Virus record (IMG/VR): IMGVR_UViG_3300007960_006782
Span: 1 to 50,848 of that record
Reading direction: 5' to 3' (one strand)
Source of the DNA: a virus
Length of the DNA stretch: 50,848 bases
Shown: positions 9-23,109 of the stretch, piece after piece
How positions within the stretch are numbered: position 1 is the first letter of the stretch
How the letters are laid out: each line of letters begins with the position of its first letter
The notes under the pieces: generated by a model
The model's database searches: none
What the model was told of the DNA's origin: nothing
Seen by the model: the letters and a program-made list of their open reading frames with translations, nothing else
Position numbers and translations under genes: made by a program

Positions 9-899
9 ATGAAAATAACTAAAACTAAACTAAAGCAAATCATAAAAGAAGAAGTTGTTAAGCTTCTTATTGAACAAGACGAATATGATGATTATGATGA
101 AGAAGAAGAAGAAGAAGAAGAAGAAGAACTTACTGAAGCACAAAAAATAATCAGATTTCTATCTTCACCTGATCCTGAATATGTAAATCTAGGTCTTGGA
201 ATTCTTGACGCCCTTGAAAATCCACAACCTGGAGTTTCACAACTCGAATATCAACGGCTCAAACTCGAATATCAACAACTCATCAATACAATTGCAAGTC
301 ATTTCACTTTCGACTCAAAAAGTAGTTTAATAACTATTCAAGGTTTTGAAGTCTCAAATGTAACATTTTGGATGATTTTAAACTATTTTGCTGAAAAATC
401 TTCTCGTGTTCAATATATGCTTGCTAAGATTGAGAGTCTTAATATTAAAGATAAATTTATGACAAACGTTGATTTTTTAAAGTTTTGCACGAACCTGACG
501 AGCCTCGAACTCTGGGGGTGCGAGTCGCTGCAGAACGTAGACGGACTGAAGGGCTGTACGAACCTGACGACCCTCAACCTCTGGGAGTGCGATTCGCTGC
601 AGAACGTAGACGGGTTGGAGGGCTGTACGAACCTGACGTACCTCTACCTCTACTGGTGCGAGTCGCTGCAGAACGTAGACGGGTTAAAGGAATGCACAAA
701 CCTGGAGACGCTCAAGCTCAACTGGTGCAAGTCGCTGCAGAACGTAGACGTACTGAAGGAATGCACGAACCTGACGACCCTCGACCTCCGCAGGTGCGCG
801 TCACTGCCATTAGGATTACAAGATTTGTTTAAATCTGATGAATACGACACAGCACACGAACAGTTTATGAAAGCTTTAAACGCATCCAAAGGAAACTAA
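9..899 (+). CDS. Tag-B leucine-rich-repeat protein, paralog 1
   Basis: This 296-residue protein starts with MKITKTKLKQIIKEEV and continues to LLIE-Q, an amphipathic helix ending in a possible prohead-protease site. A long Asp/Tyr/Glu run follows (about residues 24-40). The middle domain (about 42-155) contains MILNYFAEKS and is shared with the genes at 8761 and 11653. About five 23-residue LRRs of the pattern CTNLTxLxLxxCxSLQNVDGL follow, then a conserved tail ending NASKGN. The start overlaps an upstream stop as ATGA, so an upstream gene is cut off by the window edge. It is the only LRR paralog here ending in GN then TAA; a promoter follows. It is probably a protein-binding virion-internal protein; the ligand is unknown. 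Confidence 0.85.
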   Translation: MKITKTKLKQIIKEEVVKLLIEQDEYDDYDEEEEEEEEEELTEAQKIIRFLSSPDPEYVNLGLGILDALENPQPGVSQLEYQRLKLEYQQLINTIASHFTFDSKSSLITIQGFEVSNVTFWMILNYFAEKSSRVQYMLAKIESLNIKDKFMTNVDFLKFCTNLTSLELWGCESLQNVDGLKGCTNLTTLNLWECDSLQNVDGLEGCTNLTYLYLYWCESLQNVDGLKECTNLETLKLNWCKSLQNVDVLKECTNLTTLDLRRCASLPLGLQDLFKSDEYDTAHEQFMKALNASKGN

Positions 900-6542: not shown

Positions 6543-7598
6543 ATGCAAAAGTTATTTGAAAATTGGAGGAGATTTTTGATTACAGAAGGTGGAAATGTTT
6601 TTCAGGACCAATCTGTAGGTCCAATTCCTCTTGGTTATATTCAGCCAACACTTGAAAAGTATTATGAAGAGCTATCAAGGCTGTTTCCGCAGCATTCTAG
6701 TTTATTTCAAACTTTTGAGCCCCTTGGATCAGTCGGCAAAAAAGCAAAATCAGGCGATATTGACCTTGCTGTTGATGTTTCTGATCTTTTTCCAGATAAA
6801 AAGGTTACTGATGAGGCTCTACAAAGCTGGAATTTAAACCCAGACGACTGGAAAGCAACTTATCAAAGATTTGTTAAGCGTGCAAGAACAGCAACGCCAG
6901 AACAAGTTGAGTTAAGAGCATTTTTATACGAACTTGCCAAATATATTGGCGAGAACTCTACTTTAATCATTAGTGATTTAAAAAAAGTGCGTCCTGGCAA
7001 CATGTTCACTCTTTTTCCTCAACATAATGAAGCTGGAGAGCAACAAGATATCGGTGTTCAAATGGATTGGATGCTTGGAAACAAAAATTGGCTTACTTTT
7101 TCTTATTTTTCTGATTTTCCCTCTGAAACACAACCAATGTTAAAAGGCTTACATAGAACACAGCTTGTTTTGTCTATGTTTGGAGCCAAAAACTATTCGT
7201 TTAACCACGTAGAGGGCGTATTTGATAAAAGCACAGGTCAAAAGGTCGCTCACAGCCCTTCAGAGGCTCTACAGCTGCTTCAAAAAATTTATGGGGCTCC
7301 TATTTCGCGTGAAGATTTGCTCAACTTCAACAGCCTTTATGATTGGATAGAAGCTAATACTTCCGAACAAGAAAAAGCAAATATTTATGATATGTATCTT
7401 CGCATTCTTGATTCAACAAACGGAAATAAAGAAATTAATCCTACAACTGGTGCTAGCGAAAGATGCGGATATATTCCTCAAGAGTTAGAGTCTTATTGGC
7501 TTCAAAATTGGCAAAGACTTGGATTAAAAGGCAGGTATCTGTGTAAAACAATAAATAATGATCTAAGAAATGCTATTATGCAAGGAAACCAACCATGA
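6543..7598 (+). CDS. Tag-A Pol-beta-type nucleotidyltransferase
   Basis: The 351-residue protein starts MQKLFENWRRFLITE-GG, the clearest tag A in the window with an ITE site. The nucleotidyltransferase signature follows: GS at 62-63, then GDIDLAV with Asp72 and Asp74, and a likely third acid in QMDWM (Asp175). These are the metal-binding residues of the Pol-beta/minimal nucleotidyltransferase superfamily, which moves NMP groups onto nucleic acid, protein or small molecules. The rest is helical and unassigned. The last residues GNQP look grafted by the junction with the following LRR gene (ATGA overlap). A head-packaged nucleotidyl-transferring enzyme would parallel T4 Alt in logic; the target is unknown. 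Confidence 0.8.
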   Translation: MQKLFENWRRFLITEGGNVFQDQSVGPIPLGYIQPTLEKYYEELSRLFPQHSSLFQTFEPLGSVGKKAKSGDIDLAVDVSDLFPDKKVTDEALQSWNLNPDDWKATYQRFVKRARTATPEQVELRAFLYELAKYIGENSTLIISDLKKVRPGNMFTLFPQHNEAGEQQDIGVQMDWMLGNKNWLTFSYFSDFPSETQPMLKGLHRTQLVLSMFGAKNYSFNHVEGVFDKSTGQKVAHSPSEALQLLQKIYGAPISREDLLNFNSLYDWIEANTSEQEKANIYDMYLRILDSTNGNKEINPTTGASERCGYIPQELESYWLQNWQRLGLKGRYLCKTINNDLRNAIMQGNQP

Positions 7599-8764
7599 AA
7601 ATCACTAAAACTAAGTTAAAGCAAATAATCAAAGAAGAAGTTGTTAAGCTTCTTATTGAACAAGACGAATATGATGATTATGATGATTATGATGATGAGG
7701 AAGAACTTACTTACGCACAAAAAATAATAAGATTTCTATCTTCAAATGATCCTGACACTTTTGCACAAGGAGTAGAGATTTATTCATTGGTCAAAGACGA
7801 AATTGAAGTTAACGCTCCAACAGAAAATGATGAGATTATAGCAAAGCTACAAGTAATTGATCAGTTTGCATTGTCAGATATACAAAACGTGGACTTCTTG
7901 TCAGGTTTAAAAGAGATAAATATTACAGAGCAAATAGACCTTAGCTCTTGCAAGTCACTGCAGAACATAGACGGGCTGAAGGGCTGTGCGAGTCTGGCGA
8001 TCCTGCGCCTCTACGAGTGCGATTCGCTGGAGAACGTAAACGGGTTGGCGGGCTGTACGAACCTGACGGAACTCGACCTCTACTGGTGTGAGAAGCTGCA
8101 GAACGTAGACGGGCTCCAGGGGCTTACGAACCTGACGACCCTCTACCTCGGCGGAGGCACGTTCACGGCGCTGCAGTCTCTTGGGGCGCTCGGTGTCTTG
8201 AAGTCCCTACCGAACCTGACGAAACTCGACCTCAACAGGTGCACGTCGCTGGAGAACGTAGATGTGCTGGAGGGCTGCACGAATCTGACGACCCTCGACC
8301 TCAGCTGGTGCAGGTCGCTGCAGAACGTAGACGGGTTAAAGGAATGCACGAACCTGACGACCCTCACCCTCTACGAGTGCAAGTCGCTGGAGAACGTAGA
8401 CGGGCTAAAGGAATGCACGAACCTGACGAGCCTCGACCTCCGCTATTGCAGTTCGCTGGAAAACGTAGACGGGCTGAAGGGCTGCACGAACCTGACGACC
8501 CTCGACCTCCGCTTCTGCGAGTCTCTGCAGAACGTAGACGGTCTGGAGGGCTGCACGAACCTGACGAGCCTCGACCTCCGCTATTGCAGGTCACTGCAGA
8601 ACGTAGACGGGCTGAAGGGCTGCACGAACCTGAAAAGCCTCGACCTCTACAGGTGCAGGTCGCTGCCATTAGGATTACAAAAATTGTTTGAATCTGATAA
8701 CAGTAGCACAGCGCATGAGAAGTTTATGAAAGCTTTGAACGCATCCAAAGGAAACCAACCATGA
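7595..8764 (+). CDS. Tag-B leucine-rich-repeat protein, paralog 2
   Basis: This is the longest LRR paralog at 389 residues, overlapping its upstream gene as ATGA. Tag B (LLIE-Q site) is followed by a short EYDDYDDYDDEEE run. Its middle domain (FAQGVEIYSLVKDEIE, then VIDQFALSDIQNVDFL) is shared with the genes at 9810, 10706 and 13496 but not with paralogs 1, 3 and 6. About ten 23-residue LRRs follow, with one irregular longer unit (GTFTALQSLGALGVLKSLPN) that breaks the register. The C-terminus is SLPLGLQ, then HEKFMKALNASKGNQP. The repeats use mostly G/C-ending codons, unlike both flanks. Confidence 0.85.
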   Translation: MKITKTKLKQIIKEEVVKLLIEQDEYDDYDDYDDEEELTYAQKIIRFLSSNDPDTFAQGVEIYSLVKDEIEVNAPTENDEIIAKLQVIDQFALSDIQNVDFLSGLKEINITEQIDLSSCKSLQNIDGLKGCASLAILRLYECDSLENVNGLAGCTNLTELDLYWCEKLQNVDGLQGLTNLTTLYLGGGTFTALQSLGALGVLKSLPNLTKLDLNRCTSLENVDVLEGCTNLTTLDLSWCRSLQNVDGLKECTNLTTLTLYECKSLENVDGLKECTNLTSLDLRYCSSLENVDGLKGCTNLTTLDLRFCESLQNVDGLEGCTNLTSLDLRYCRSLQNVDGLKGCTNLKSLDLYRCRSLPLGLQKLFESDNSSTAHEKFMKALNASKGNQP

Positions 8765-9813
8765 AAATCACTAAAACTAAGTTAAAGCAAATAATCAAAG
8801 AAGAAGTTGTTAAGCTTCTTGTTGAGCAAGACGAATATGATGATTATTATGATGATGATTATGAAGAAGAAGAAGAAGAACTTACACCGGCACAAAAAAT
8901 AATCAAGCTTCTATCTTCAGATGATTCTGCTAATGTAGAACAAGGTCTTACAATTCTTGACGCTCTTGAAGATCAACAACTCATCGATACAATTGCAAGT
9001 TATATCGATTTTAGATCAGGCGGCAGAATAACTATTCGAAGATTTAAGATCCCAAATGAAACCCTTGAGATGATTTTAAACTATTTTGCTGAAAAATCTG
9101 ATCATTTTAAAGATATGCTTGCTCAGATTGAGAATCTGGTGTTCTATCTTAATGATTTTATCACAAACGTTGATTTTTTAAGGTTTTGCACGAACCTGAC
9201 GCGCCTCAACCTCGGCTGGTGCGAGTCGCTGCAGAACGTAAATGGGCTGAAGGGCTGCACGAACCTGACGACCCTCAACCTCTACGAGTGCACGTCGCTG
9301 CAGAACGTAGACGGGCTGGAGGGCTGCACGAACCTGACGACCCTCGACCTCAGCGGGTGCACGTCGCTGCAGAACGTAGATTCACTCCAGGGGCTTATGA
9401 ACCTGGCGACCCTCTACCTCAGAGGGTGCAAGTCACTGCAGAACATAAATGGGCTCCAGGGGCTTACGAACCTGACGACCCTCGACCTCCAAGGGTGCAA
9501 GTCGCTGCAGAACGTGGATGGGCTCCAGGGGCTTACGAACCTGACGACCCTCTACCTCAACATGTGCTCGTCGCTGCAGAACGTAGACGGGCTCCAAGGG
9601 CTTACGAACCTGACGACCCTGAACCTCGCCGGTTGCGAGTCGCTGCAGAACGTAGATGCACTCCAGGGGCTTACAAAGCTCACGATTCTCGAACTCAGCT
9701 GGTGTTCGTCGCTGCCACCAGAATTGCAAGAATATTTTGCAACTGATAGCAGTGGCACAGCACACGAGAAGTTTATGGAAGCCCTAAAAGCATCTAAAAG
9801 GAACTCATTATGA
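8761..9813 (+). CDS. Tag-B leucine-rich-repeat protein, paralog 3
   Basis: The 350-residue protein has tag B with an LLVE-Q site and an EYDDYYDDDYEEEEEE run. Its middle domain is of the paralog-1 type (GLTILDALEDQQLIDTIAS, then MILNYFAEKSDH and ITNVDFLRF). About eight LRRs follow. From the third onward most units carry LQGLTNL instead of KGCTNL, so two repeat subtypes are arranged in blocks. The tail is HEKFMEALKASKRNSL, which departs from the usual NASKGNQP. The junction to the next gene is still an ATGA overlap with AAAAGGAAC as ribosome site. Confidence 0.85.
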   Translation: MKITKTKLKQIIKEEVVKLLVEQDEYDDYYDDDYEEEEEELTPAQKIIKLLSSDDSANVEQGLTILDALEDQQLIDTIASYIDFRSGGRITIRRFKIPNETLEMILNYFAEKSDHFKDMLAQIENLVFYLNDFITNVDFLRFCTNLTRLNLGWCESLQNVNGLKGCTNLTTLNLYECTSLQNVDGLEGCTNLTTLDLSGCTSLQNVDSLQGLMNLATLYLRGCKSLQNINGLQGLTNLTTLDLQGCKSLQNVDGLQGLTNLTTLYLNMCSSLQNVDGLQGLTNLTTLNLAGCESLQNVDALQGLTKLTILELSWCSSLPPELQEYFATDSSGTAHEKFMEALKASKRNSL

Positions 9814-10709
9814 AAATAACCAAATCAACTTTAAAGCAAATAATCAAAGAAGAAGTTGTTAAGCTTCTTGTTGAGCAAGACGAATATGATTATGATGATT
9901 ATGATTACGAAGAAGAAGAACTTACGCCGGCACAAAAAATAATCAGATTTCTATCTTCAAAAGATCCTGACACTTTTGCACAAGGAGTAGAGATTTATTC
10001 TTTGGTCAAAGACGATATTGAAGCTAACGCTCAAACAGAAAATAGCCAAATCTTAGAAAAGCTAAGAGTGATTGATCAGTTTGCAGGGTCAGATATACCA
10101 GACGTTGGTTCCTTGTCAGTCTTAAGTGATCTAAACGTCACAGAAGAAATAGACCTCAGCGGGTGCGAGTCGCTGAAGAACGTAGACGGGTTCCAGAACG
10201 TAGACGAGCCCCAAAGGCTCACGAACCTGACGGAACTCGACCTCAGCTGGTGCAAGTCGCTGCAGAACGTAGACGGGCTCCAGGGGCTTATGAATCTGGA
10301 TTGGCTCCACCTCAGCGGGTGCGAGTCGCTGCAGAACGTAGACGGGCTAAAAGAATGCACGAACCTGACGGAACTCGACCTCAGCTGGTGCACGTCGCTA
10401 CAGAACATAGACGGGCTGGAGGGCTGTACGAATCTGGCGTCCCTCTACCTCAACAGATGCGAGTCGCTGCAGAACGTAGGCGGGCTCCAGGGGCTTACGA
10501 ACCTGAAAAGCCTCGACCTTAGCGGGTGCACGTCGCTGCAGAACGTAGACGCGCTGAAGGGCTGCACGAATCTGACGAGCCTCTTCCTCAACGGGTGCGA
10601 GTCGCTGCCGCGAGCACTGCAAAGATCTTTTCATTCTTTTGAGCACATCGGCACAGCATACGAACAGTTTATGAAAGCTTTAAATGCATCCAAAGGAAAC
10701 CAACCATGA
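9810..10709 (+). CDS. Tag-B leucine-rich-repeat protein, paralog 4
   Basis: The 299-residue protein starts MKITKSTLKQIIKEEV and has an LLVE-Q site and a short YDYDDYDYEEEE run. Its middle domain is of the paralog-2 type (FAQGVEIYSLVKDDIEANA, ILEKLRVIDQFA). About six to seven LRRs follow. The first contains an 8-residue internal duplication (KNVDGFQNVDEPQR), which suggests unequal recombination. The tail is HSFEHIGTAYEQFMKALNAS and then KGNQP. Start and stop both form ATGA overlaps with the adjacent LRR genes. Confidence 0.85.
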   Translation: MKITKSTLKQIIKEEVVKLLVEQDEYDYDDYDYEEEELTPAQKIIRFLSSKDPDTFAQGVEIYSLVKDDIEANAQTENSQILEKLRVIDQFAGSDIPDVGSLSVLSDLNVTEEIDLSGCESLKNVDGFQNVDEPQRLTNLTELDLSWCKSLQNVDGLQGLMNLDWLHLSGCESLQNVDGLKECTNLTELDLSWCTSLQNIDGLEGCTNLASLYLNRCESLQNVGGLQGLTNLKSLDLSGCTSLQNVDALKGCTNLTSLFLNGCESLPRALQRSFHSFEHIGTAYEQFMKALNASKGNQP

Positions 10710-11656
10710 AAATCACTAAAGCAACTTTAAAGCAAATCATCAAAGAAGAAGTAGTTAAGCTTCTTATTGAACAAGACGAATATGATGATTATGATTACGA
10801 AGAAGAGGAAGAAGAACTTACTTACGCACAAAAAATAATCAGACTTCTATCTTCACCTGATCCTGGCACTTTTGCACAAGGATTAGAGGTTTATTTACTT
10901 TTCAAAGACGATATTGAAGCCAGCGATCCAGCAGGAAATAATCAGATCTTAGAAAAATTAAGAGTGATTGATCAGTTTGCAAGGTCGCCAGACATACAAA
11001 ACGTTAATTTCTTGTCGGGCTTAAGTGTTCTAAACGTTACAGAAAAAATCATCCTCGAAGGGTGCAAATCACTGCAGAACGTGGACGGACTCCAGGGGCT
11101 TACGAACCTGTGGAGGCTCGACCTCGGCTTCTGCAACTCGCTGGAGAACGTAGACGGGCTGGAGGGGCTTACGAACCTGACGTGGCTCGACCTCAGTGAA
11201 TGTAAGTCGCTGGAGAACGTAGACGCGCTGAAGGGCTGCTCGAACCTGACGACCCTCTATCTCAACGGGTGCGATAAGCTGCAGAACGTAGATGGGCTGG
11301 GGGGCTGTGCGAGTCTGACGACCCTCGACCTCCAAGGGTGCAAGTCGCTGCAGAACGTAGACGGGCTAAAGGAATGCACGAACCTGACGCACCTCACCCT
11401 CGAAGGGTGCGAGTCGCTGGAGAACGTAGACGGGTTAAAGGAATGCACGAACCTGACGGAACTCGACCTCTACAGGTGCGAGTCGTTGCAGAACGTAGAC
11501 GGTCTGGAGGACTGCACGAATCTGATAAGCCTCAGCCTCGAAGGGTGCAAGTCGCTGCCAATAAAATTGCAAAAATATTTTGGAACTGATAGCAGCGGCA
11601 CAGCATACGAACAGTTTATGAAAGCTTTAAATGCATCTAAAGGAAACCAACCATGA
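10706..11656 (+). CDS. Tag-B leucine-rich-repeat protein, paralog 5
   Basis: The 316-residue protein starts MKITKATLKQIIKEEV with an LLIE-Q site and an acidic EYDDYDYEEEEEE run. The middle domain is paralog-2 type (FAQGLEVYLLFKDDIEASD). About seven to eight LRRs mix the GLTNL, GCTNL and ECTNL subtypes. The first repeat is entered through ILEGCKSLQNVDGLQG, where the AT-rich to GC-rich switch occurs. The end is KLQKYFGTDSSGTAYEQF, then MKALNASKGNQP and ATGA. Confidence 0.85.
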   Translation: MKITKATLKQIIKEEVVKLLIEQDEYDDYDYEEEEEELTYAQKIIRLLSSPDPGTFAQGLEVYLLFKDDIEASDPAGNNQILEKLRVIDQFARSPDIQNVNFLSGLSVLNVTEKIILEGCKSLQNVDGLQGLTNLWRLDLGFCNSLENVDGLEGLTNLTWLDLSECKSLENVDALKGCSNLTTLYLNGCDKLQNVDGLGGCASLTTLDLQGCKSLQNVDGLKECTNLTHLTLEGCESLENVDGLKECTNLTELDLYRCESLQNVDGLEDCTNLISLSLEGCKSLPIKLQKYFGTDSSGTAYEQFMKALNASKGNQP

Positions 11657-12585
11657 AAATCACCAAAACTAAACTAAAGCAAATAATCAAAGAAGAAGTT
11701 GTTAAGCTTCTTGTTGAACAAGACGAATATGATGATTATGATGATTATGATTACGAAGAAGAAGAACTTACTTACGCACAAAAAATAATCAAGCTTCTAA
11801 TTTCAGATGATTCTGCTAATGTACAGCAAGGTCTTTCAATTCTTGACGCCCTTGAAGATCCACAACCTGGATTTTCACAACTCGAATATCAACAACTCAT
11901 CGATACAATTGCAAGTCATTTCGTTTTCGACTCAAAAAGTAATTCAATAACTACACAAGGATTTGATCTTCCGCAAGAAATTGTTCCGCAACAACTTGGG
12001 ATGATTTTAAACTATTTTGCTGAAAAATCTGATCGTGTTAAAAATATGCTTGATCAGATTGAGAGACTTAATATTGCAAATGATTTTATCACAAACGTTG
12101 ATTTTTTAAGGTTTTGCAAGAACCTGACGAGCCTCAAACTCAACGGGTGCACGTCGCTGGAGAACGTAGACGGGCTCCAAGGACTCACGAACCTGACGGA
12201 CCTCAACCTCTACAAATGCGAGTTGCTGCAGAACGTAGACGGGCTGGCGGGCTGTACGAACTTGAATTGGCTCAACCTCAACAGGTGCAAGTCGCTGCAG
12301 AACGTGGACGGGCTAAAGGAATGCACGAACCTGATGTACCTCTACCTCAGCTTCTGCGAGTCGCTGGAGAACGTAGACGGGCTAAAGGAATGCACGAACC
12401 TGATGTACCTCAACCTCGGCTTCTGCAATTCGCTGCAGAACGTAGACGGTCTGGAGGGCTGCACGAACCTGACGAGCCTCTCCCTCATAGAGTGCTCATC
12501 GCTACCACCAGAATTACAAGAAAGGTTTGAATCTGATAGCAGTGGCACAGCATACGAGCAGTTTATGGAAGTTTTAAAAGGATAA
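11653..12585 (+). CDS. Tag-B leucine-rich-repeat protein, paralog 6
   Basis: The 310-residue protein carries tag B (LLVE-Q) and the paralog-1 type middle domain (SILDALEDPQPGFSQLEYQQ, MILNYFAEKSDRVKNMLDQI). About six LRRs follow. Two consecutive units are almost identical (ECTNLMYLYLSFC and ECTNLMYLNLGFC), which points to recent duplication of a unit. The protein ends EQFMEVLKG without the NASKGNQP tail, and a 56-nt gap follows, so this closes the contiguous block of five LRR genes. Confidence 0.85.
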   Translation: MKITKTKLKQIIKEEVVKLLVEQDEYDDYDDYDYEEEELTYAQKIIKLLISDDSANVQQGLSILDALEDPQPGFSQLEYQQLIDTIASHFVFDSKSNSITTQGFDLPQEIVPQQLGMILNYFAEKSDRVKNMLDQIERLNIANDFITNVDFLRFCKNLTSLKLNGCTSLENVDGLQGLTNLTDLNLYKCELLQNVDGLAGCTNLNWLNLNRCKSLQNVDGLKECTNLMYLYLSFCESLENVDGLKECTNLMYLNLGFCNSLQNVDGLEGCTNLTSLSLIECSSLPPELQERFESDSSGTAYEQFMEVLKG

Positions 12586-12641
12586 TATTTTTTTGTATTG
12601 TCCTTTGACTGCTAACTATTTAAAGCAAGGATACCAAAACT

Positions 12642-13499
12642 ATGCAAGATTTATATGGTGATATTAACGAAGAAGAAATTACTCGTTCTAACGAGGAAAG
12701 AAAACAAAGGCAAAGAGAAGCTATTAAAAAAATGCTTCGACTTGGCATGATCTCAAAAGAAGAAGCATCTCAACTTTATAAAAAAGCAGGAGGCACCGCC
12801 ACTCTTGAGGAAGAAGAAATAAACGAGAAAAAGAAAAAGCAACAAAAGGGCAAGAAACGTGCTCGCAAGGTAGCTGATAGAAAAAAGAAAAAGAATTCTT
12901 CAGGAAAGAAAGATGCTTGTTATCATAAAGTTAAATCTCGTTATAAAGTTTGGCCATCTGCATACGCTTCAGGGGCACTTGTTAAATGTCGCAAAGTAGG
13001 TGCTAAAAATTGGGGCAATTCCAAAAAAGAATCTATTGATTTTGAGCATCTCGATCAAATAATTGATGAAGAAATAAATAAAGTTTTTGAAAGCAAAGAA
13101 ATGTCCGACCAAGATATTAAGAAAATAAAAGAAATTATTGGTCAACTTGAAGATTCTGTTAAAAAGCATGGCTCTCAGGCAGATTTTCTTAGTTCTCTTA
13201 TTGACGAAGAAATACAAAAAGAGCTAAATGAAAAAAAAAGAAAACTAACTAAGAAGCCATCATCTGAAACTTCTCTTCGCGATTGGTTTGGTCGTAAAGG
13301 AGCACCTGGAAAGAAAGGTGGCTGGGTTGATTGCAACACTTGCAGAAAGGACGAAAAGACAGGCAAAAAGAAGTGCTCTCCATGCGGTAGGTCTGGAGAT
13401 GAAAAAAGATCTAAATATCCTTCTTGCAGACCAACACCATCAGCTTGTGGAGAGCGTGGAAATTGGGGCAAGAAATCAAAATCAGGTAAAAAAGGATGA
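12642..13499 (+). CDS. Basic Cys-rich protein, DUF5872-like C-terminus
   Basis: The 285-residue protein is very Lys-rich. It has two recognisable modules known from marine T4-like phages. Around residues 88-125, DACYHKVKSRYKVWPSAY leads to ALVKCRKVGAKNWGNSKK. At the C-terminus (about 213-285), LRDWFGRKGAPGKKGGWVDC is followed by CNTC, CSPC and YPSCRPTPSAC, which looks like DUF5872 and may bind zinc. Residues about 150-190 contain a helical LDQIIDEEINKVFES segment. The charge suggests DNA contact inside the head. The N-terminus has an INE-E site but no clear tag. It sits between two LRR genes and ends ATGA into the next. Confidence 0.75.
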   Translation: MQDLYGDINEEEITRSNEERKQRQREAIKKMLRLGMISKEEASQLYKKAGGTATLEEEEINEKKKKQQKGKKRARKVADRKKKKNSSGKKDACYHKVKSRYKVWPSAYASGALVKCRKVGAKNWGNSKKESIDFEHLDQIIDEEINKVFESKEMSDQDIKKIKEIIGQLEDSVKKHGSQADFLSSLIDEEIQKELNEKKRKLTKKPSSETSLRDWFGRKGAPGKKGGWVDCNTCRKDEKTGKKKCSPCGRSGDEKRSKYPSCRPTPSACGERGNWGKKSKSGKKG

Positions 13500-14521
13500 A
13501 AATAACTAAATCAAAATTGAATCAGATCATCAAAGAAGAAGTTGTTAAGCTTCTTATTGAAGAAGACGAATATGATGATGATTATGATTATGAAGAAGAG
13601 GAAGAACTTACGCCGGCACAAAAAATAATAAGACTTCTATCTTCAAATGATCCTTGGGAGTTTGCACAAGGAGTAGAGGTTTATTTACTGTACAAAGACG
13701 TAATTAAAGCCAGCGATCCAGCAGGAAATAGCGAAATCTTAAAAAAGCTAGAAGTAATTGATCAGTTTGCAGAGTCAGATATAGAAGAAGAAAATGTTAA
13801 TTTCTTGTCAGGCTTACGTGAACTAAACGTTACAACAAAAATAGACCTCAGCTATTGCAATTCGCTGCGTAATGTGGACGGACTCCAGGGGCTTACGAGC
13901 CTGACGAGCCTCGACATCAACCATTGCTATTCGCTGGAGAACGTAGACGGGCTAAAGGGCTGCACGAGCCTGACGAGCCTCGACCTCGGATGGTGCTCGT
14001 CGCTGCAGAACGTAAATGGGCTCCAGGGGCTTACGAACCTGACGGACCTCAACCTCGAAAGGTGCTCGTCGCTGCAGAACGTAGACGGGCTCCAGGGGCT
14101 TACGAACTTGACGAGCCTCTTCCTCACCGGGAACAAGTCGCTTCAGAACGTAGATGCACTCCAGGGGTTTACGAACCTGACGAGTCTCGACCTCAGCAAT
14201 TGCAAGTCGCTTCAGAACGTAGACGGGCTCCAGGGGCTTACGAACCTGACGGACCTCGACCTCAGCCGGTGTAGGTCACTGCAGAACGTAGACGGTCTGG
14301 CGGGCTGTACGAATCTGACGACCCTCGACGCTTACTGGTGCACGTCGCTGGAGAACGTAGACGGTCTGGCGGGCTGTACGAACCTGACGAGCCTTGATCT
14401 CACCTTCTGTGAGTCGCTGCCACGAGTACTACGAAGATTGTTTCAATCTTCTGAATACTACGGCACAGCATACGAACATTTTATGGAAGTTTTAAACGTA
14501 TCCAAAGGAAACCAACCATGA
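13496..14521 (+). CDS. Tag-B leucine-rich-repeat protein, paralog 7
   Basis: The 341-residue protein starts MKITKSKLNQIIKEEV with LLIE-ED, and its middle domain is paralog-2 type (FAQGVEVYLLYKDVIKASD). About eight to nine LRRs follow, mostly of the LQGLTNL subtype, with one unit lacking the usual Cys (LFLTGNKSLQNVDALQG). The tail EYYGTAYEHFMEVLNVSKG ends in NQP and ATGA. It is separated from the main LRR block by the DUF5872-like gene, so cassettes have been inserted or shuffled between them. Confidence 0.85.
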   Translation: MKITKSKLNQIIKEEVVKLLIEEDEYDDDYDYEEEEELTPAQKIIRLLSSNDPWEFAQGVEVYLLYKDVIKASDPAGNSEILKKLEVIDQFAESDIEEENVNFLSGLRELNVTTKIDLSYCNSLRNVDGLQGLTSLTSLDINHCYSLENVDGLKGCTSLTSLDLGWCSSLQNVNGLQGLTNLTDLNLERCSSLQNVDGLQGLTNLTSLFLTGNKSLQNVDALQGFTNLTSLDLSNCKSLQNVDGLQGLTNLTDLDLSRCRSLQNVDGLAGCTNLTTLDAYWCTSLENVDGLAGCTNLTSLDLTFCESLPRVLRRLFQSSEYYGTAYEHFMEVLNVSKGNQP

Positions 14522-15099
14522 AAATAACAGAAGCTAAATTAAAGCAAATAATTAAAGAAGAAACCGAAGCTATTGAAATGGTAGACTACCATCTTGAAAA
14601 TAAGATTCCTTTTTCAAGAAATATTTATCGTATTGGGTCTGATAACTATTTTCGTGTTATTCACGAAGCAAGAAAGATGTACGAGAATAAAGAAATTAAT
14701 CCTCAGTTAATTGATCTTCATACCCTCAAGCATACCGATTTAGGTGAGTGGGCGATATTTGAAGGTGAAAGAGTCCCGCTTGATTTTCCAATGTACGATG
14801 AAGTTTTAGAAGAAGAGTCCAAGAAAAAAGACCCGCCACTAAACAAGCCAACCAAAAATACTGGTTCAGGAAAGAAATATAAAGTTTATGTTCGCGATCC
14901 AAAAACAGGTAATGTCAAGAAAGTTACTTATGGTGACGCAAAAGGTGGTCTAAAAGGCAACTGGAACGACCCAGAAGCTCGTAAAAGTTTTGCTGCAAGG
15001 CACAAGTGCGATCAGAAAAAAGATAAAACAAAACCCGGTTATTGGGCTTGCAGGGCTCATAAAGACTTTGGTACAAATGTCCCCGGTAGATTCTGGTAA
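14518..15099 (+). CDS. Tag-B protein with basic Cys/Trp C-terminal domain
   Basis: The 193-residue protein starts MKITEAKLKQIIKEETEA, a diverged tag B. The middle (about 20-100) is unrecognised. The C-terminal 75 residues contain a beta-rich KYKVYVRDPKTGNVKKVTYG, then ARKSFAARHKCDQKK and GYWACRAHKDFG. This basic Cys/Trp domain is common in T4-like marine phage proteins, whose function I do not know. The tag shared with the preceding LRR gene and the ATGA overlap show that tag B is not limited to LRR proteins. Confidence 0.75.
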   Translation: MKITEAKLKQIIKEETEAIEMVDYHLENKIPFSRNIYRIGSDNYFRVIHEARKMYENKEINPQLIDLHTLKHTDLGEWAIFEGERVPLDFPMYDEVLEEESKKKDPPLNKPTKNTGSGKKYKVYVRDPKTGNVKKVTYGDAKGGLKGNWNDPEARKSFAARHKCDQKKDKTKPGYWACRAHKDFGTNVPGRFW

Positions 15100-15110
15100 G
15101 GTATGACACA

Positions 15111-16247
15111 ATGAAGCTTCTATTTGAAAATTGGCGACAGTTTATCTCTGAAGAGATTATACCATTTGAAAATAAAGCTATTGTTTATCATGCTTTCGGT
15201 AAAGGCTCTAGAGGAAATGAAAGTCTTCAAAAAAACGAAATTTTAAATAGAATAGAAACGTTAAGAGAAAAAGGGTTTATTCCAGGCGAGGGCGACCTTT
15301 ATGGTCGTGGTATTTATACCGTTAGAAATTCAAATGATCTCTTATATGAATATGGTGATTTTGTTTTTAAATTTGAAGTTAAAAATTTAAATAAATATGC
15401 GATTTTTGATTATAAAGAGGCAAAAAAAGTATATGGAAGAAATCATAATTTAAAACAGCAATTAGAACAAAATGATTTATTTATAGACGAAGAGTTAGAA
15501 ATGATTTGTAACGAAACAAGTTTGCTCAACAGAACAGATAAGCCATTCACAAGCGAACAAGCTCTTGCATTTTCAACATATTTAGAAAACAATGCAAGTG
15601 AAAAACAAAAAATACATGGATTAGTTTTCACAGGCAGGAAAGACGGCTCTGTCTTAGTCGGGTATAAAAATTCAGATTTTATTCTTGTTGGATTTGGAGA
15701 AACTTTATCAATTAAAAGCACCAATTTTAATAATTTTCTAGAAGACTCGCAAAAATTTACAGAAGATATGAAAAGTATCTATACAATACAGAATGACAAA
15801 ATAAATTCAGATTCTTTTTTCCGCCAAATTAGGAATGCATTTTATACAAAAATTAAATCAGTTGAAAATTACATCAACAATAAAGAAAATATAAAAAGAG
15901 AGATTATCTCTGAAATTTTAATGCCAATTTATATTATACAGAGACAATATTACATTCAAAGAATGAGAGAGTCTTTAGCACCAAAAGTATTTGAATATTA
16001 TAAAAAATTGATTGATGTTGATTCTGATGAAGATATAGAAGAAAATGAGGATTACGATATAGCCATCTTAGAAGCCGAAGAGGCGTTAGAGCAAGAAATG
16101 AAACAAATAGTTGAAACTGAGATTTCAAGATTTGTGACATATTTAGATTTCATTTTTAGAAAATTTAAACTAACTGATGAGCCCGCAGAGATAAACATTG
16201 TAGATTTAGAAAGACCATTTAACATGAGTGGAAAACAAAATGTCTGA
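15111..16247 (+). CDS. Tag-A protein, ADP-ribosyltransferase-like
   Basis: The 378-residue protein starts MKLLFENWRQFISE-EI, a strong tag A with an ISE site. Residues about 23-100 look like an ADP-ribosyltransferase-type fold: IVYHAF (His27), DLYGRGIYTVRNSND (62-76) and GDFVFKFEVKNLNKYAIFD. The H and GxGIYT elements recall the H-Y half of PARP-like NAD-binding sites; I cannot fix the catalytic third residue. The remaining 270 residues are helical and charged, with a very acidic stretch near 305-330. T4 Alt is a head-packaged ADP-ribosyltransferase, so this could be a functional analogue. The fold call is moderate. Confidence 0.65.
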   Translation: MKLLFENWRQFISEEIIPFENKAIVYHAFGKGSRGNESLQKNEILNRIETLREKGFIPGEGDLYGRGIYTVRNSNDLLYEYGDFVFKFEVKNLNKYAIFDYKEAKKVYGRNHNLKQQLEQNDLFIDEELEMICNETSLLNRTDKPFTSEQALAFSTYLENNASEKQKIHGLVFTGRKDGSVLVGYKNSDFILVGFGETLSIKSTNFNNFLEDSQKFTEDMKSIYTIQNDKINSDSFFRQIRNAFYTKIKSVENYINNKENIKREIISEILMPIYIIQRQYYIQRMRESLAPKVFEYYKKLIDVDSDEDIEENEDYDIAILEAEEALEQEMKQIVETEISRFVTYLDFIFRKFKLTDEPAEINIVDLERPFNMSGKQNV

Positions 16248-16521
16248 TTATCCATTTACAGAACAAAAAGTTGGTAATCAACTATTTTTACGAGAATTTA
16301 AAGAAACTACAAACTCTGAAGAGCTAATTTGGCACCAAGATCGTGAAAATAGAAAAATAAAAGTTTTAGAATCAAACAATTGGTTTTTACAGATGGATAA
16401 CGAACTACCTGTTTTATTAAAAGAAGGCACTACTTATAACATACCAGCTTATGTTTACCATCGAGTAATCAAAGGTAACGGCGCTTTGCGTTTATTAATA
16501 CATAAAGGTGAGCAAATTTAA
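16240..16521 (+). CDS. Small cupin-like phage protein
   Basis: I take ATG at 16240 (93 residues) rather than the upstream GTG at 16228. It overlaps the previous gene by 8 nt. Key segments are ELIWHQDRENRKIKVLES, a NNWFLQMDNELPVLL stretch, then YNIPAYVYHRVIKG and LRLLIHKG. These give His residues on short beta strands, as in a small cupin-like barrel seen in many marine T4-like phages. Metal binding is possible; function is unknown. Confidence 0.65.
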   Translation: MSDYPFTEQKVGNQLFLREFKETTNSEELIWHQDRENRKIKVLESNNWFLQMDNELPVLLKEGTTYNIPAYVYHRVIKGNGALRLLIHKGEQI

Positions 16522-17520
16522 ATGGCTTATAATATCAACAGCAATAGTTTTGTAACAGGAACAAGTGTTTTAACTCCATACTCTGATGAGGCTTACAGCA
16601 TAGGAGAAGAAAACTTAAGAATTGAAACTCTTTATTCTCATTATGCAAATGCAGCAGTTACTTTTACTGCGATAAATGCAGAGGGAGATTCAATAACAAA
16701 AGGTCAAGTTGTTTTTGTTACTGGTGCTTCTGGACAAACGCCTACTGTTGCTCTTGCTGCATGTGATGATCCAAATAAAATGCCAGCTTTTGGTGTTGCA
16801 GCTTCTAACGCAAATAATGGAGCAGAAGTTCAAATCATTACTCTTGGTAGTTTAAAAAATGTAAACACAGCAGGCTATAGCCTTGGTGACACACTTTACG
16901 TTCAAACAGGCTCTGGTGGAACATCTGGTAGCTTTACAAAATTAGCTCCAACTGGTTCATTTAATTTATTGCAGAACATTGGGCAAGTTATGCGCGTCGA
17001 TGCTTCTGCTGGGCAAATTAAAGTTGGCGGCGCTGGTCGTACCAACGCAACACCAAACCTAGACAAAGGTTTTCTTTTTGTTGGAAACGATCAAGATGTT
17101 TCTGTAGCAGACGATACTATTTTTGTGTCCTCTTCAGCAAATTTAGTTGGTATTAATACAGTTGATCCAACGGATACTCTTGATGTTGATGGAGGCTTAA
17201 GAACACGGGCTGGTCTACGTAGAGCAGTTATAGTGCATAGCGCTTCTTTTACAGCACAAACATCAGATCATTATTATTTAATTTCTGGTTCAAGCACTCA
17301 TGTTACAGCAAGCTTGCCTTCTTTAGCTGATGCTGGTGGAGGAAGAATCTTTGTATTTAAAGATGCCGATGGAAACTCTGCAACAAATAATATTGTTATA
17401 CAGCCGTCTGGTTCTGAAACAATTGACTCAGGAACTGAAGCTAAAATTCAAAGCGCTTGGAGCGCAGTTACCATTATTGCTGGCGGTGCTTTAGGTTGGC
17501 TTATTGTAGGTGATAGATAA
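16522..17520 (+). CDS. Phage fibre or tail structural protein
   Basis: The 332-residue protein is rich in Gly, Ala, Ser and Thr with almost no charge clusters, as in phage fibres. It has beta-repeat style segments (AEGDSITKGQVVFVTGASG), then a LVGINTVDPTDTLDVDGGLR stretch typical of fibre shafts. It ends with NNIVIQPSGSETIDSGTEAK, then TIIAGGALGWLIVGDR, a terminal module common in marine phage fibre proteins. It starts directly after the preceding stop and overlaps the next gene by one base (TAATG), so the two probably form one fibre assembly. Confidence 0.75.
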   Translation: MAYNINSNSFVTGTSVLTPYSDEAYSIGEENLRIETLYSHYANAAVTFTAINAEGDSITKGQVVFVTGASGQTPTVALAACDDPNKMPAFGVAASNANNGAEVQIITLGSLKNVNTAGYSLGDTLYVQTGSGGTSGSFTKLAPTGSFNLLQNIGQVMRVDASAGQIKVGGAGRTNATPNLDKGFLFVGNDQDVSVADDTIFVSSSANLVGINTVDPTDTLDVDGGLRTRAGLRRAVIVHSASFTAQTSDHYYLISGSSTHVTASLPSLADAGGGRIFVFKDADGNSATNNIVIQPSGSETIDSGTEAKIQSAWSAVTIIAGGALGWLIVGDR

Positions 17521-18293
17521 TGGCTGACTGGACTTTAACGAATGGCGTTTGGACACTAACTCCTGCTGCTGGTGGTTCTGAATATGATAAGACCCTAACA
17601 ATAATAGATTTAACAGATGGTTCATGGACGCTTTATGATCCAGACAGTCTTGTTAATACAATTACTTTTTCTGGTGCTTGGCATACACTAACATGGAACG
17701 CACTGCCTGTTGGCTCTGGTGACTATAACTGGTTTTACGGTACTACTGTTAGAGCACCACGTTGGTACAAGAACTTGGAAATTGATGGCACACAGGTCAC
17801 GTCATTGGACCTACTTGTGTCGACCTATCGCATGGAAGTACCTCCCCTGGGCTCCCCTGACGTATGCCCGTTCAGATGGAAAGGTGTTTTCGGTGCAGCC
17901 CTTGATGCTGCATCAACGGACACCGGCTTGATGTGTGGGACTGGCGGTACGATGGGGCGTTTTTCGACAGTGACCAATCCCCTTTATGGTGTATTTACAC
18001 GACACACAGAATCTTCAAACGGTCCGAATAACGGGATCTATGGCGTTTGTACTACGATACGCGGTGGCGACGGGCTTGGTGGTGGTGAATTTATGATTTT
18101 CGACAACACCGACGCGAACCTCCAAGCCGCCGCTCGCTCTGCTGGCGTTTACACTACAGGTCTTCCTGTCCCTACAGACGTGCAGTTAATGGTTGGTTTA
18201 GGCATTGGGGCGAACAATGTGACAATCACCGCAGGCGATCAAACTAAATTTAAGTTGAGCCATGTCTCAACAACTATTGCAGCAGGAGCTTAA
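17520..18293 (+). CDS. Putative distal fibre or receptor-binding protein
   Basis: The 257-residue protein has Trp/Gly/Thr-rich beta segments (MADWTLTNGVWTLTPAAGG, TIIDLTDGSWTLYD). A C-terminal two-thirds rich in Gly, Cys and Asn follows, with CPFRWKGVFGAALDA, LMCGTGGTMGRF and IRGGDGLGGGEF. The gene is clearly more GC-rich than both neighbours, mainly from about 17740 on. This suggests that a tip domain was acquired from elsewhere. Position after the shaft gene supports a receptor-binding role; there is no recognisable carbohydrate-binding domain. Confidence 0.6.
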   Translation: MADWTLTNGVWTLTPAAGGSEYDKTLTIIDLTDGSWTLYDPDSLVNTITFSGAWHTLTWNALPVGSGDYNWFYGTTVRAPRWYKNLEIDGTQVTSLDLLVSTYRMEVPPLGSPDVCPFRWKGVFGAALDAASTDTGLMCGTGGTMGRFSTVTNPLYGVFTRHTESSNGPNNGIYGVCTTIRGGDGLGGGEFMIFDNTDANLQAAARSAGVYTTGLPVPTDVQLMVGLGIGANNVTITAGDQTKFKLSHVSTTIAAGA

Positions 18294-18295
18294 AA

Positions 18296-18532
18296 ATGCA
18301 CATGAACGCAGATTATTCTCAAGTTGTAGAAGGAACCATTTCTACTGAAGACACGGACGGAAGTAGCATTTCAGAAGAATGTATTATTATTCCGGTTCTT
18401 GTTCCTCTTTCAGAAGTGGGGGACTGGCTGGCAGCTTACGATCCAACTTCTTCAACTTCGCCTTCAGCGGCTGATAGTCGCAAGATTGCTCGTGTTGTAC
18501 TTGATGCTTTAAAAAAGTATAAAGAAAGTTAA
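18296..18532 (+). CDS. Small fibre-associated hypothetical protein
   Basis: The 78-residue product begins MHMNADYSQVVEGT, has a low-complexity STSPSAADSRK hinge, and ends in a helix (KIARVVLDALKKYKES). It starts 2 nt after the fibre gene stop. Small proteins of this shape often follow fibre genes in marine phages and may be assembly factors or minor tail parts, but I have no motif to show it. Confidence 0.55.
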   Translation: MHMNADYSQVVEGTISTEDTDGSSISEECIIIPVLVPLSEVGDWLAAYDPTSSTSPSAADSRKIARVVLDALKKYKES

Positions 18533-18552
18533 TTTAAGCTTCTATTTATTGT

Positions 18553-18846
18553 ATGAAGTTAGAAGATACAGTTATAACAAAAAAACTTCAAAGAGTTTTA
18601 AATCAGTTAGCTGGAATACCAGATAAAAATAAAGAACTTCTTCCAGAAATGATAATAAGAGGTTCAAGCGGTTACATAATGTGTTATGATATAACTTCTC
18701 GTAGCTTTATTAAGGTTGCGAGAGGCACTACTTGTTTTATGATAGACGAAACTTTAGATTCAAGAAATAGAGTTATGGTTTATGTTTCTTCAAACAACGT
18801 AGTCATGATAGACAGAAAAGAAATATTTTATGTGGGCTACAACTAA
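18553..18846 (+). CDS. Small hypothetical protein, probably beta-rich
   Basis: The 97-residue product has a helical N-terminus (LQRVLNQLAGIPDKNKELLP). Alternating short strands follow (GYIMCYDITSRSFIKVARG, DSRNRVMVYVSSNNVVMID). It has no signal peptide or known motif. It overlaps the next small gene by one base. Confidence 0.55.
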   Translation: MKLEDTVITKKLQRVLNQLAGIPDKNKELLPEMIIRGSSGYIMCYDITSRSFIKVARGTTCFMIDETLDSRNRVMVYVSSNNVVMIDRKEIFYVGYN

Positions 18847-18983
18847 TGTTATTTGAATTTGGTGTGTTCTGGAGGGTTATAATTTTTCTTGTTGTTACTT
18901 GGATTTGTTATGCTCTTTGGGGTTTTGAATTTGTTGCTTTAACTTTATTGGCTTTAATAGCATCAATTTTAAAAGAAAGGTAA
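18846..18983 (+). CDS. Tiny membrane protein (45 aa)
   Basis: An ATG overlapping the previous stop (TAATG) opens a 45-codon frame ending TAA at 18981-18983. The product is almost wholly hydrophobic (WRVIIFLVVTWICYALWG, then LTLLALIASIL) and ends KER. It could form one long or two short membrane helices. AGGT and the next start follow closely. It fits the tight gene spacing and fills an otherwise empty 143-nt gap. Confidence 0.5.
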   Translation: MLFEFGVFWRVIIFLVVTWICYALWGFEFVALTLLALIASILKER

Positions 18984-18989
18984 ATATTA

Positions 18990-19271
18990 ATGGAACCAAG
19001 CGATAGTCCATTCGGCAAGCTAATCTCTGATGATTTTTGTATTGGCGATATTGTAGAGTGGTCTAAGTGGTGTCCTATCGACAAAAGTTGGAAATTAAAC
19101 TATGGTTTAATAACAAATATTAGCAATAAAATCAAATCTAATAGACTTGTTTCTGTTTGTACTGTTATTCCGATGAAAGAGCCCGTTAGAGGCGAGATAG
19201 AACTATTTACTTTTAATCTGCGAATAATCTCAAAAGCGTCGGAGAGCAAACAAAATGAAATCAGTAATTGA
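18990..19271 (+). CDS. Small beta-rich phage hypothetical protein
   Basis: The 93-residue product follows GAAAGG and starts MEPSDSPFGKLISDDF. The segments FCIGDIVEWSKW, YGLITNISNKIKSNRLVSVC and GEIELFTFNLRIISKA suggest a compact beta barrel of a type seen in T4-like marine phages. Function is unknown. It overlaps the VOC gene by 17 nt. Confidence 0.6.
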   Translation: MEPSDSPFGKLISDDFCIGDIVEWSKWCPIDKSWKLNYGLITNISNKIKSNRLVSVCTVIPMKEPVRGEIELFTFNLRIISKASESKQNEISN

Positions 19272-19593
19272 TCACATAGCCTTATTAGTTGATGATTTGC
19301 AAGTCGCGGAAGAATGGTATGTAAGCCATTTAAAGGGCGAAGTAACTTTTCGAGATCAAAAATACATAAGATTAAAAGTAGAAAACACAAATATTGCTCT
19401 TATTGATAAAAAATGGTATCCATATGCACATATTGGAATACTTATAGATAGTAAAAAAGACTTCCCAGAAAACGCAGAAATTGTAGAACATCGTGATGGA
19501 ACTACAGGTGCTTATGTAAAAGACCCATTTAACAACTATTTAGAATATATTTGGTATTCAGATAAACAAAAAAAGGTATTTTTAGATGATTGA
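19255..19593 (+). CDS. VOC (glyoxalase/dioxygenase) superfamily protein
   Basis: The 112-residue protein has the two beta-alpha-beta-beta-beta halves of a single VOC domain. It opens IDHIALLVDDLQVAEEWYV, has IALIDKKWYPYAHIGILID in the middle, and ends AYVKDPFNNYLEYIWYSD. Likely metal ligands are His7 (IDHIAL), the mid-domain His (AHIGI) and a Glu near the end (NYLEY). The family includes glyoxalase I, fosfomycin-resistance and ring-cleavage enzymes, so the reaction cannot be stated. It overlaps the following gene by 8 nt. Confidence 0.75.
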   Translation: MKSVIDHIALLVDDLQVAEEWYVSHLKGEVTFRDQKYIRLKVENTNIALIDKKWYPYAHIGILIDSKKDFPENAEIVEHRDGTTGAYVKDPFNNYLEYIWYSDKQKKVFLDD

Positions 19594-20281
19594 TGTTCTT
19601 AAGCCAATGATAAAGCAATTTATGCCATTTGCAAAAGAGCGTATGGGATTTGAATCTCCTCCAAGATTATTCTTGAAAAGAGATCAAACAAACGCTCAAA
19701 ACCCTCTTGGCAAAACAGCGTATTACGATCCAGAACAAAAAAGCGTGACTCTTTACATTACTGGAAGACATCCTAAAGATGTTATGCGTTCACTTTCTCA
19801 TGAATTGGTTCATCATACTCAAAATTGTAATGGCAAATTTGATCAAGTAGGTCAGATGGGCGACGGATACGCACAAAACGATGAACATTTAAGAGAAATG
19901 GAAAGAGAAGCTTACGAACAAGGAAATTTATGTTTTCGCGATTGGGAAGACAGCATTAAGCATACTATTTATTTTGAACATTTGCAAAAAGGAGCAAACA
20001 ATATGTCTAACAAAAAATGGAAAAACAAAGAACTTAACAGCCTTTTAGCTGAAAGCTGGGGCTTTAATATGAATTTTGATAACTTAAACGAAGAAGCAAA
20101 GCCTGATTATCTTGATCTTGATAAAGACGGTGATAAAGAAGAGCCGATGAAACAAGCAGCAGAACAAGCAGAAGAAGGTGACAAAGAAAAAGACCAATTT
20201 GGTGCTCCTCCGAGTCTTAGTGAAGCAAAACTTCGTCGCGCTGTTCGTGAAGCTTTAAAAAAGTCAATCGTTAAAAGATAA
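19586..20281 (+). CDS. Zinc metallopeptidase-like protein with Asp-loop and tag-like tail
   Basis: The 231-residue protein has HELVH at residues 72-76 (HExxH zinc motif), followed about 30 residues later by an EREAYEQG segment that could supply the third Glu ligand. After about residue 140 it changes to a tail with LNSLLAESWG, a YLDLDKDGDKEEPMK loop like a DxDxDG calcium-binding site, and LSEAKLRRAVREALKKS. The last stretch resembles tag B placed at the C-terminus. An internal ATG at 20003 (after AAAGGAG) could start a separate small protein from this tail. Substrate unknown. Confidence 0.7.
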   Translation: MIDVLKPMIKQFMPFAKERMGFESPPRLFLKRDQTNAQNPLGKTAYYDPEQKSVTLYITGRHPKDVMRSLSHELVHHTQNCNGKFDQVGQMGDGYAQNDEHLREMEREAYEQGNLCFRDWEDSIKHTIYFEHLQKGANNMSNKKWKNKELNSLLAESWGFNMNFDNLNEEAKPDYLDLDKDGDKEEPMKQAAEQAEEGDKEKDQFGAPPSLSEAKLRRAVREALKKSIVKR

Positions 20282-20285
20282 GGCT

Positions 20286-20552
20286 ATGTCGGTGGAAAAA
20301 AGCTGGAAAGATTTTTTAAACAATCAAAATGTTGAAAAAGACATTTTTGATTATATTGGTTCTCTTCAAGAGTTCGTTGGACAAATGCGTCCTAAAACTT
20401 TTGGAGAGAAACAACAAATTGAAACAGCAAAAGAATATTTAAAAGAAGTTAGAAAATTAGCCAAAAGATTAGAAACCAAAAATGATTTATTGGAAGCAAA
20501 AATAAACATATTAGAGCACAATCTATCAGATGGAGAAATTTTAGATGGCTAA
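20286..20552 (+). CDS. Small coiled-coil protein
   Basis: The 88-residue product starts MSVEKSWKDFLNNQNVEKD, a weak echo of tag A without the cleavage Glu. It then forms a long charged helix (about 35-85, KEYLKEVRKLAKRLETKNDL). It may be a small scaffold, tail-chaperone or spacer protein. Its end overlaps the next gene by 8 nt. Function unknown. Confidence 0.55.
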   Translation: MSVEKSWKDFLNNQNVEKDIFDYIGSLQEFVGQMRPKTFGEKQQIETAKEYLKEVRKLAKRLETKNDLLEAKINILEHNLSDGEILDG

Positions 20553-21336
20553 GATTGCAATTGTTCCTGGTTCTTTTAAGCCTCCGCACAGGGGGCATCT
20601 TGCTATGGTAGAGCAGTATTCACAAAATAACGATAAAGTTATTATATTAATTTCAAATCCGTTAAAAAATCAACGCGCTCTTGAAGATGGCACTGTTATT
20701 ACTGCTCAAAACGCAATAGACATGTGGGACGAACTAACTTCAGGACTTTCAAATGTGGAAATACAAGTTTCACCATCAGCTTCTCCCGTTGGTGCATCTT
20801 ATAATTATATTGGACCTGAAGGTGATTTGCAAGAAGGCGACTTTATTACCCTTGGAGCAAGCAACAAAGGAACTGATGTTCAGCGTTGGAAAGATGCCGA
20901 TAGATATGTGAAAAAAGGCGTAATGCTTCTTAATCCACAAACAACAGCAGTACAGCCAGAAGTTCATAGCCCAGAATACATACAATCAGTAATGAGTTCT
21001 GATTTTAAGGAATCCATGCCAAGTATTATTACAAATAAAGACTTTAGTTTATTTCATGCATCAGATATGCGCTATCTTTTAGGTAAAGCTTCGACCTCCC
21101 CAGAGGCTGTAGAACTCCTTCGAGATTTTGTTTTAGATGACGCTATGGCAAAAAAATTTCTGGACATTCTAGGTATTGTACCGGCGTCCTCAGAGCCAAT
21201 TGAAGAGATTTCAGCTATGGGTGCTGGAGCAGTTGCTGGGTATTCTAAACCATTTGTTGGAAAGAGAGACGAAGACTGCGGCTGCATAAGCGAACAAATT
21301 TATAACATTTTCCTTAAAAGAGGCATTTTAAAATGA
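20545..21336 (+). CDS. Cytidylyltransferase-like (HxGH) nucleotidyltransferase
   Basis: The 263-residue protein opens IAIVPGSFKPPHRGHLAMVE, giving the HRGH nucleotide-binding motif (His15-His18) of the cytidylyltransferase/NMNAT/PPAT superfamily. A KVIILISNPLKN strand follows. The second ISTxR-type motif is not obvious, so activity is uncertain. The C-terminal region (about 220-250) has EEISAMGAGAVAGYSKPF, a Gly/Ala stretch seen in marine phage proteins, and a DCGC element. Family members adenylate or cytidylate phosphate sugars, NMN or pantetheine phosphate. It lies just before the acidic gene with an ATGA overlap. Confidence 0.75.
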   Translation: MAKIAIVPGSFKPPHRGHLAMVEQYSQNNDKVIILISNPLKNQRALEDGTVITAQNAIDMWDELTSGLSNVEIQVSPSASPVGASYNYIGPEGDLQEGDFITLGASNKGTDVQRWKDADRYVKKGVMLLNPQTTAVQPEVHSPEYIQSVMSSDFKESMPSIITNKDFSLFHASDMRYLLGKASTSPEAVELLRDFVLDDAMAKKFLDILGIVPASSEPIEEISAMGAGAVAGYSKPFVGKRDEDCGCISEQIYNIFLKRGILK

Positions 21337-22106: not shown

Positions 22107-22124
22107 AAATTACAAAAAAGTCCC

Positions 22125-22153: not shown

Positions 22154-22183
22154 ATTAAAGAATTGATCAGTAGTGATTAGCAA

Positions 22184-22531: not shown

Positions 22532-22532
22532 A

Positions 22533-23102: not shown

Positions 23103-23109
23103 AAAATAA

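Follow-up and report, generated by a model that had tools for sequence, protein, structure and literature searches.

How did runs of GC-rich codons come to lie in the middle of AT-rich phage genes? The viral record analysed here (the window, 50,848 bases with an overall GC content of 36.3%) contains seven open frames of a common plan, in which an N-terminal tag and a helical cap are followed by an array of 23-residue LRRs and a short tail (Table 1). An earlier, sequence-only reading had described six of them and proposed that a GC-rich repeat module was imported into an AT-rich tagged frame and then spread; the seventh, at 9-899, lay outside the interval it covered. The LRR profile PF12799 is matched at 100.5 bits by 7595-8761 and at 50.7 bits by 9-896 (curated cut-off 27), and no reverse transcriptase, as expected close to the target of a diversity-generating retroelement, was among the Pfam matches of the 20 window proteins scanned.

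Table 1. Positions of the LRR paralogs, their GC-rich arrays and tagged features in the window
Feature	Position	Strand	Remarks
g1, LRR paralog, cap type B	9..899	+	
g1 GC-rich LRR array	486..800	+	change points, GC3 0.17/0.87/0.31
g2, LRR paralog, cap type A	7595..8764	+	PF12799 E 3.6e-29
N-terminal tag MKITKTKLKQIIKEEVVKLLIEQDEY	7595..7672	+	shared by the seven paralogs, with minor variation
g2 GC-rich LRR array	7949..8665	+	change-point fit
g3, LRR paralog, cap type B	8761..9813	+	AlphaFold2 model pLDDT 79
g3 GC-rich LRR array	9187..9651	+	lower-GC3 repeats continue to ~9715
g4, LRR paralog, cap type A	9810..10709	+	
g4 GC-rich LRR array	10152..10610	+	change-point fit
g5, LRR paralog, cap type A	10706..11656	+	
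g5 GC-rich LRR array	11048..11557	+	change-point fit
g6, LRR paralog, cap type B	11653..12585	+	
g6 GC-rich LRR array	12115..12495	+	change-point fit; 12161-12243 identical to L035:111-193
g7, LRR paralog, cap type A	13496..14521	+	
g7 GC-rich LRR array	13844..14419	+	change-point fit
Following gene, variant MKITEAKLKQIIKEE of the g1-g7 tag	14518..15099	+	no LRR, AT-rich
Neighbour with second tag type MKLLFENWRQFISEE	15111..16247	+	no LRR, AT-rich, no Pfam match

A composition step inside each LRR gene

We located the step using maximum-likelihood two-change-point fits on third codon positions and compared these with permuted data. In the seven paralogs GC3 rises from 0.17-0.26 to 0.79-0.88 in the array and falls again to 0.25-0.43, and the gain of 52-71 log-likelihood units is far beyond the permuted maximum of only 9-19, which confirms the sharp GC switch that had been read from the letters. 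Fixed structural limits give GC3 values of 0.23-0.30 for the N-terminal part, 0.79-0.84 for the array and 0.26-0.36 for the tail; overall GC in the arrays is 55.6-59.6%. The same reading had staked its claim on a comparison with other genes of the phage, and the GC-rich codon use is indeed absent there (GC3 0.18-0.41 in non-LRR window genes). The gene at 17520-18293 (48% GC, GC3 0.41) stands at the top of this range and is a possible second import.

The step is independent of LRR amino-acid content and is not intrinsic to LRRs. Identical residues take other codons in the array than in the flank, the fraction of G/C-ending codons being 0.88 versus 0.24 for Leu, 0.98 versus 0.17 for Thr, 0.86 versus 0.23 for Asp and 0.91 versus 0.18 for Gln; Val (GTA in 41 of 47 array codons) and Ile do not follow this pattern. 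Codon use in the flanks is that of other window genes. Among 21 control LRR genes drawn from Bacteroidota, Verrucomicrobiota and one Mollicutes plasmid, only three of them with AT-rich flanks, the GC3 step was 0.03 +/- 0.09 with a maximum of 0.30, compared with ~0.45-0.70 in the phage paralogs by the change-point fits. That the contrast might be a mere effect of LRR composition, given that GC is possible in the codons for the motif's Leu, Asn and Asp, is a proposal to which we assign a negligible probability, as it is refuted by the residue-matched codon use and by the step-free control genes.

The step is also seen in independent assemblies. Contig L035 has an array GC3 of 0.81 and a tail GC3 of 0.32, and L049/L059, which show the same step, are 99.98% identical to window positions 14189-28076. 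Contigs L035, L049 and L050, which belong to this virus or near relatives, all start inside an LRR array or its downstream tail; metagenomic contigs break in such arrays, so that the order of arrays at 7595-14189 rests on a single assembly.

The switch had been placed at one structural boundary shared by every paralog. The boundary is structural, but at the 5' side it occupies two positions, one per cap type. In cap type B genes (9-899, 8761 and 11653) the switch is placed precisely at ...F|C[TK]NLT; cap type A genes (7595, 9810, 10706 and 13496) have it at another point of the repeat, close to the first IxLxxC. The sequence TGCACGAACCTGACG marks the boundary only at 486 (in 9-899) and at 9187 (in 8761-9813). 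On the 3' side, six paralogs switch back at or close to C-x-SLP, and in 8761-9813 the fit places the change about one repeat earlier.

Descent, spread and variable surfaces of the repeat units

Several features of the codons bear on how the arrays arose. In a codon-by-position table of 48 regular units, four of them from contig L035, Leu is encoded by CTG at unit positions 1 and 13 and by CTC at 16 and 18, Ser mostly by TCG at 22-23 and AGC at 15, 17 and 19, and Val at position 4 by GTA in 41 of 45 cases. Unit position and Leu codon share 0.72 nats of mutual information, against at most 0.10 in permuted data. The consensus 69-bp unit has G or C at the third position of 22 of its 23 codons, and the AT-ending codons GTA and CTT predominate at some positions. 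These position-fixed synonymous codons point to descent of the units from one founder, as a general preference for G/C-ending codons would not fix GTA.

Cap proteins are 0.70 identical within a type and 0.42 between types A and B, a division that array units ignore (17.5 versus 16.9 differences per 69 bp) and that is followed neither by tags (0.91 within and 0.91 between cap types) nor by tails (0.63 and 0.59). Units of the same gene differ from one another at 16.4 positions and units of different genes at 17.2 (p 0.017), and no unit order common to the paralogs was seen. Because the units ignore the caps and no common order links them, arrays have crossed between cap types, whether by exchange or by renewed amplification, which upholds the proposed spread of the module among paralogs.

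The accompanying suggestion that recombination keeps the arrays homogeneous was not borne out. The array-unit scaffold has a dS of 0.26-0.41, and the values for the flanks span 0.17-0.44 (tags 0.44, cap A 0.35, cap B 0.17, tails 0.39); given this similarity, arrays are no more homogeneous than flanks and their silent sites show no visible constraint. Nor did gene conversion among the window arrays find support, since their longest common tracts (44-48 bp) are within the expectation from whole-unit shuffling. The sole clear recent tract found is one of 83 bp in the L035 array (111-193) that is identical to 12161-12243 in g6; this array also has a 26-bp tract in common with 14315-14340. Linkage between unit sites is gone by ~12 bp, which fits either shuffling or a star-like amplification burst followed by independent mutations. 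L035 carries a terminase-like gene as well as the LRR array, and another LRR locus in contigs of this virus or its near relatives lies upstream of a terminase-like gene.

At unit positions 15, 17, 19, 20 and 22 pN/pS is 1.8 (bootstrap 1.3-2.4) compared with 0.4 for the scaffold, values that describe divergence among units rather than a standard test of selection, as repeats are not orthologs. Bases 1 and 2 change at these positions and the third tends to stay, as C at 15, 17 and 19 and as G at 20 and 22. The AlphaFold2 model of 8761-9813 (array pLDDT mostly 74-96) has one strand per 23 residues, on positions 15-17, and Foldseek matches it to internalins, SDS22 and designed LRRs. Since the model strands cover positions 15-17, the variable positions correspond to the predicted concave sheet surface and the turn after it, the usual binding site of LRR proteins. 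By this model, concave-face residues are exchanged faster than silent sites, giving varied surfaces with a predicted role in binding.

Origin of the unit and competing histories

In a scan of one genome per species across 84,980 species, which was seeded with exact peptides from the query and so favours look-alikes, 23 loci were confirmed: 22 are titled as Verrucomicrobiota lineages (one of them Akkermansia) and one as Flagellimonas. Random draws, counting any match at E 0.001, gave 6 of 195 genomes for the phylum Verrucomicrobiota and 4 of 198 for Bacteroidota, and a class-level sample gave matches in 7 of 384. The top bacterial scores came from the genome of L017 (66 bits), in whose family 8 of 40 genomes match at 1e-8; some of these contain dozens of units. 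Several Verrucomicrobiota MAGs (L012-L034) have an expanded family of multi-copy genes, with LRR units numbering in the dozens and a common N-terminal hydrophobic segment.

The phage consensus unit is identical to that of the Verrucomicrobiota family at 51 of 69 bases (74%). The two share a Leu codon layout that ranks 4 among 720 arrangements (p ~0.006), and LRRs of other GC-rich genomes differ from it at positions 13 and 16. Taken together, the sequence comparisons suggest that the donor of the unit was most likely a bacterium of Verrucomicrobiota or a relative. The bacterial search that had been proposed for the module thus recovered relatives but not a near-identical donor: among the sampled bacterial genomes searched, nothing closer than ~75% DNA identity was found. 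With this best identity and four systematic codon differences between phage and Verrucomicrobiota (Gln CAG/CAA, Val GTA/GTG, Gly GGG/GGC, Thr ACG/ACC), the donor may be another lineage.

Among mobile elements, a protein search of 50,697 phage records and cap-only scans of viral sequences gave no match, and a plasmid search returned only distant internalin-like and Mollicutes LRRs. In a search for the same DNA among viruses, a 17-base core occurred in 21 contigs, more than once only in L059 and L062 (contigs of L049 and L035); the single matches in the remaining 19 were judged from their number to be chance.

The step, the controls, the codon layout and the relatives best support the reading first proposed, in which an AT-rich tagged frame took in a GC-rich module. 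The history that we consider probable as one whole is that a phage ancestor captured a GC-rich 69-bp LRR unit, or a short array, inside its own tagged AT-rich gene; that this unit multiplied in tandem; and that gene duplication and recombination placed arrays behind two N-terminal cap types. The GC-rich codons would then be a fossil of the founder, their GC3 slowly decaying from ~96% to ~84%, and drift toward the phage's own 25% would be only about one sixth complete, with no force required to hold GC. Meanwhile, faster exchange of concave-face residues than of silent sites would have produced a set of varied binding surfaces. A test of the direction of drift had little power, since just one or two silent sites end in A or T.

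Three other histories deserve weighing. Frequent recombination of tandem repeats could itself have driven GC upward through GC-biased gene conversion, and the shuffled arrays, the weak clustering of units by gene and the lack of a common order agree with this. We nevertheless think it quite unlikely: tags exchange too, being highly alike across caps and sharing identical tracts of 56-60 bp, and have stayed AT-rich; the step is sharp rather than graded; GTA is fixed at position 4; silent sites in the arrays are no more alike than those of the flanks; and the LRR arrays of other genomes are without a step. A composition contrast that outlived the divergence of the paralogs could instead reflect selection by the phage on silent sites, keeping G/C-ending array codons for translation, mRNA structure or recombination. 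This would be hard to reconcile with array silent divergence equal to that of the flanks, or with position-specific codons that include the AT-ending GTA and CTT and are unlike a general GC preference, and it too is improbable.

The arrays and the ends do lie in the same open frames, and whole genes might therefore have been imported, with the ends drifting to phage composition and the arrays lagging. However, other tagged phage genes have the same tags, and an LRR-free tagged protein on a 66.8-kb contig of the same virus (L167:3955-4482, minus strand) matches cap A weakly (E 0.0018). The similar silent divergence of array and ends leaves such a lag unexplained, and we regard import of whole genes as very unlikely. 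Capture of a founder unit by a resident tagged gene remains the history that we favor.

N-terminal tags and comparison with known systems

The first tag has the consensus MKITKxxLKQIIKEExxKLL[IV]E. Residues 20-22 of each of the seven paralogs are L-[IV]-E, a motif short enough to match easily by chance in one protein and found here in paralogs that are not independent. Two tags, MKITKxxLKQIIKEE and a second, MKLLFENWRxFxxE, open many unrelated proteins both here and in other phage contigs; by eye and without a profile match, these include kinase-, HAD phosphatase- and GNAT acetyltransferase-like proteins and pentapeptide-repeat proteins. Tag sites lie at window positions 5946, 6543, 14518, 15111 and 22533 and in L147-L155, L010, L011 and L009, a distribution like that of a modular targeting system. 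In a related phage, tagged pentapeptide-repeat proteins, another solenoid, occur near a terminase-like gene (L009:823-1516 and L009:10439). Between close strains, L050:76-627 differs from L035:412-645 by an extra tagged GNAT-like gene that follows the LRR tail and precedes the next tagged gene. Among 12 further tagged virus records, several of which are fragments, no LRR array was seen apart from that of L050.

Head proteins of T4 are cleaved by gp21 at sites following L/I-X-E, and the propeptides lost in this way serve to direct proteins to the capsid interior (PMC9026906). By analogy, the tag may be a capsid-targeting propeptide: the LRR proteins would be packaged, cut after L-[IV]-E and injected with the DNA, and could then bind or block host proteins. 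The occurrence of the tags on unrelated proteins, together with the T4 gp21 rule, favors packaged, injected binding proteins, to which we give about an even chance. In a literature consisting mostly of papers available without subscription, we found no description of these tags or of a composition step in phage LRRs.

Base composition here traces the borders of an intragenic domain, most likely a captured one, and does so with unusual clarity, seven times over and with tag, cap and tail as internal controls. With silent sites little decayed and the surface much changed, the locus is a natural experiment in which one borrowed repeat became a varied family of predicted binding proteins.

LRR proteins in dsDNA viruses and phages have been reported before (cited in PMC10945359); the case described there is a weak LRR match (10% hhpred probability) in a tail module, with neither a tagged paralog cluster nor a composition step. 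The phage repeats resemble LRR_4 (PF12799), internalin and SDS22-like LRRs in their 23-residue repeat, LxL strand and short opposite helix, and differ from PF12799-type bacterial LRRs in having a tag, their own helical cap and a GC-rich array in an AT-rich gene. In that Verrucomicrobiota family (Chthoniobacteraceae / Spartobacteria MAGs), the multi-copy LRR genes share the 23-residue unit LQNVDGLKGLTxLQxLDLxxC, with mostly 43-65% protein identity over the matched stretches, but have no composition step and a different N-terminus with a hydrophobic segment. The T4 internal head proteins IPI-IPIII and Alt, with their capsid targeting sequence, are alike at the level of the motif, in that a short common N-terminal tag with L/I-X-E stands on many unrelated proteins. 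No T4 internal protein is known to contain an LRR. Phage-injected LRR proteins would be candidates for counter-defence. It is even conceivable, though we think it unlikely, that they form a combinatorial repertoire of packaged binders, built on a foreign cassette whose concave residues have been diversified and reshuffled among tagged paralogs. Every virion would then deliver a panel of different LRR proteins directed at host defence or at other host proteins, in some respects a viral counterpart of the LRR receptors of jawless vertebrates.
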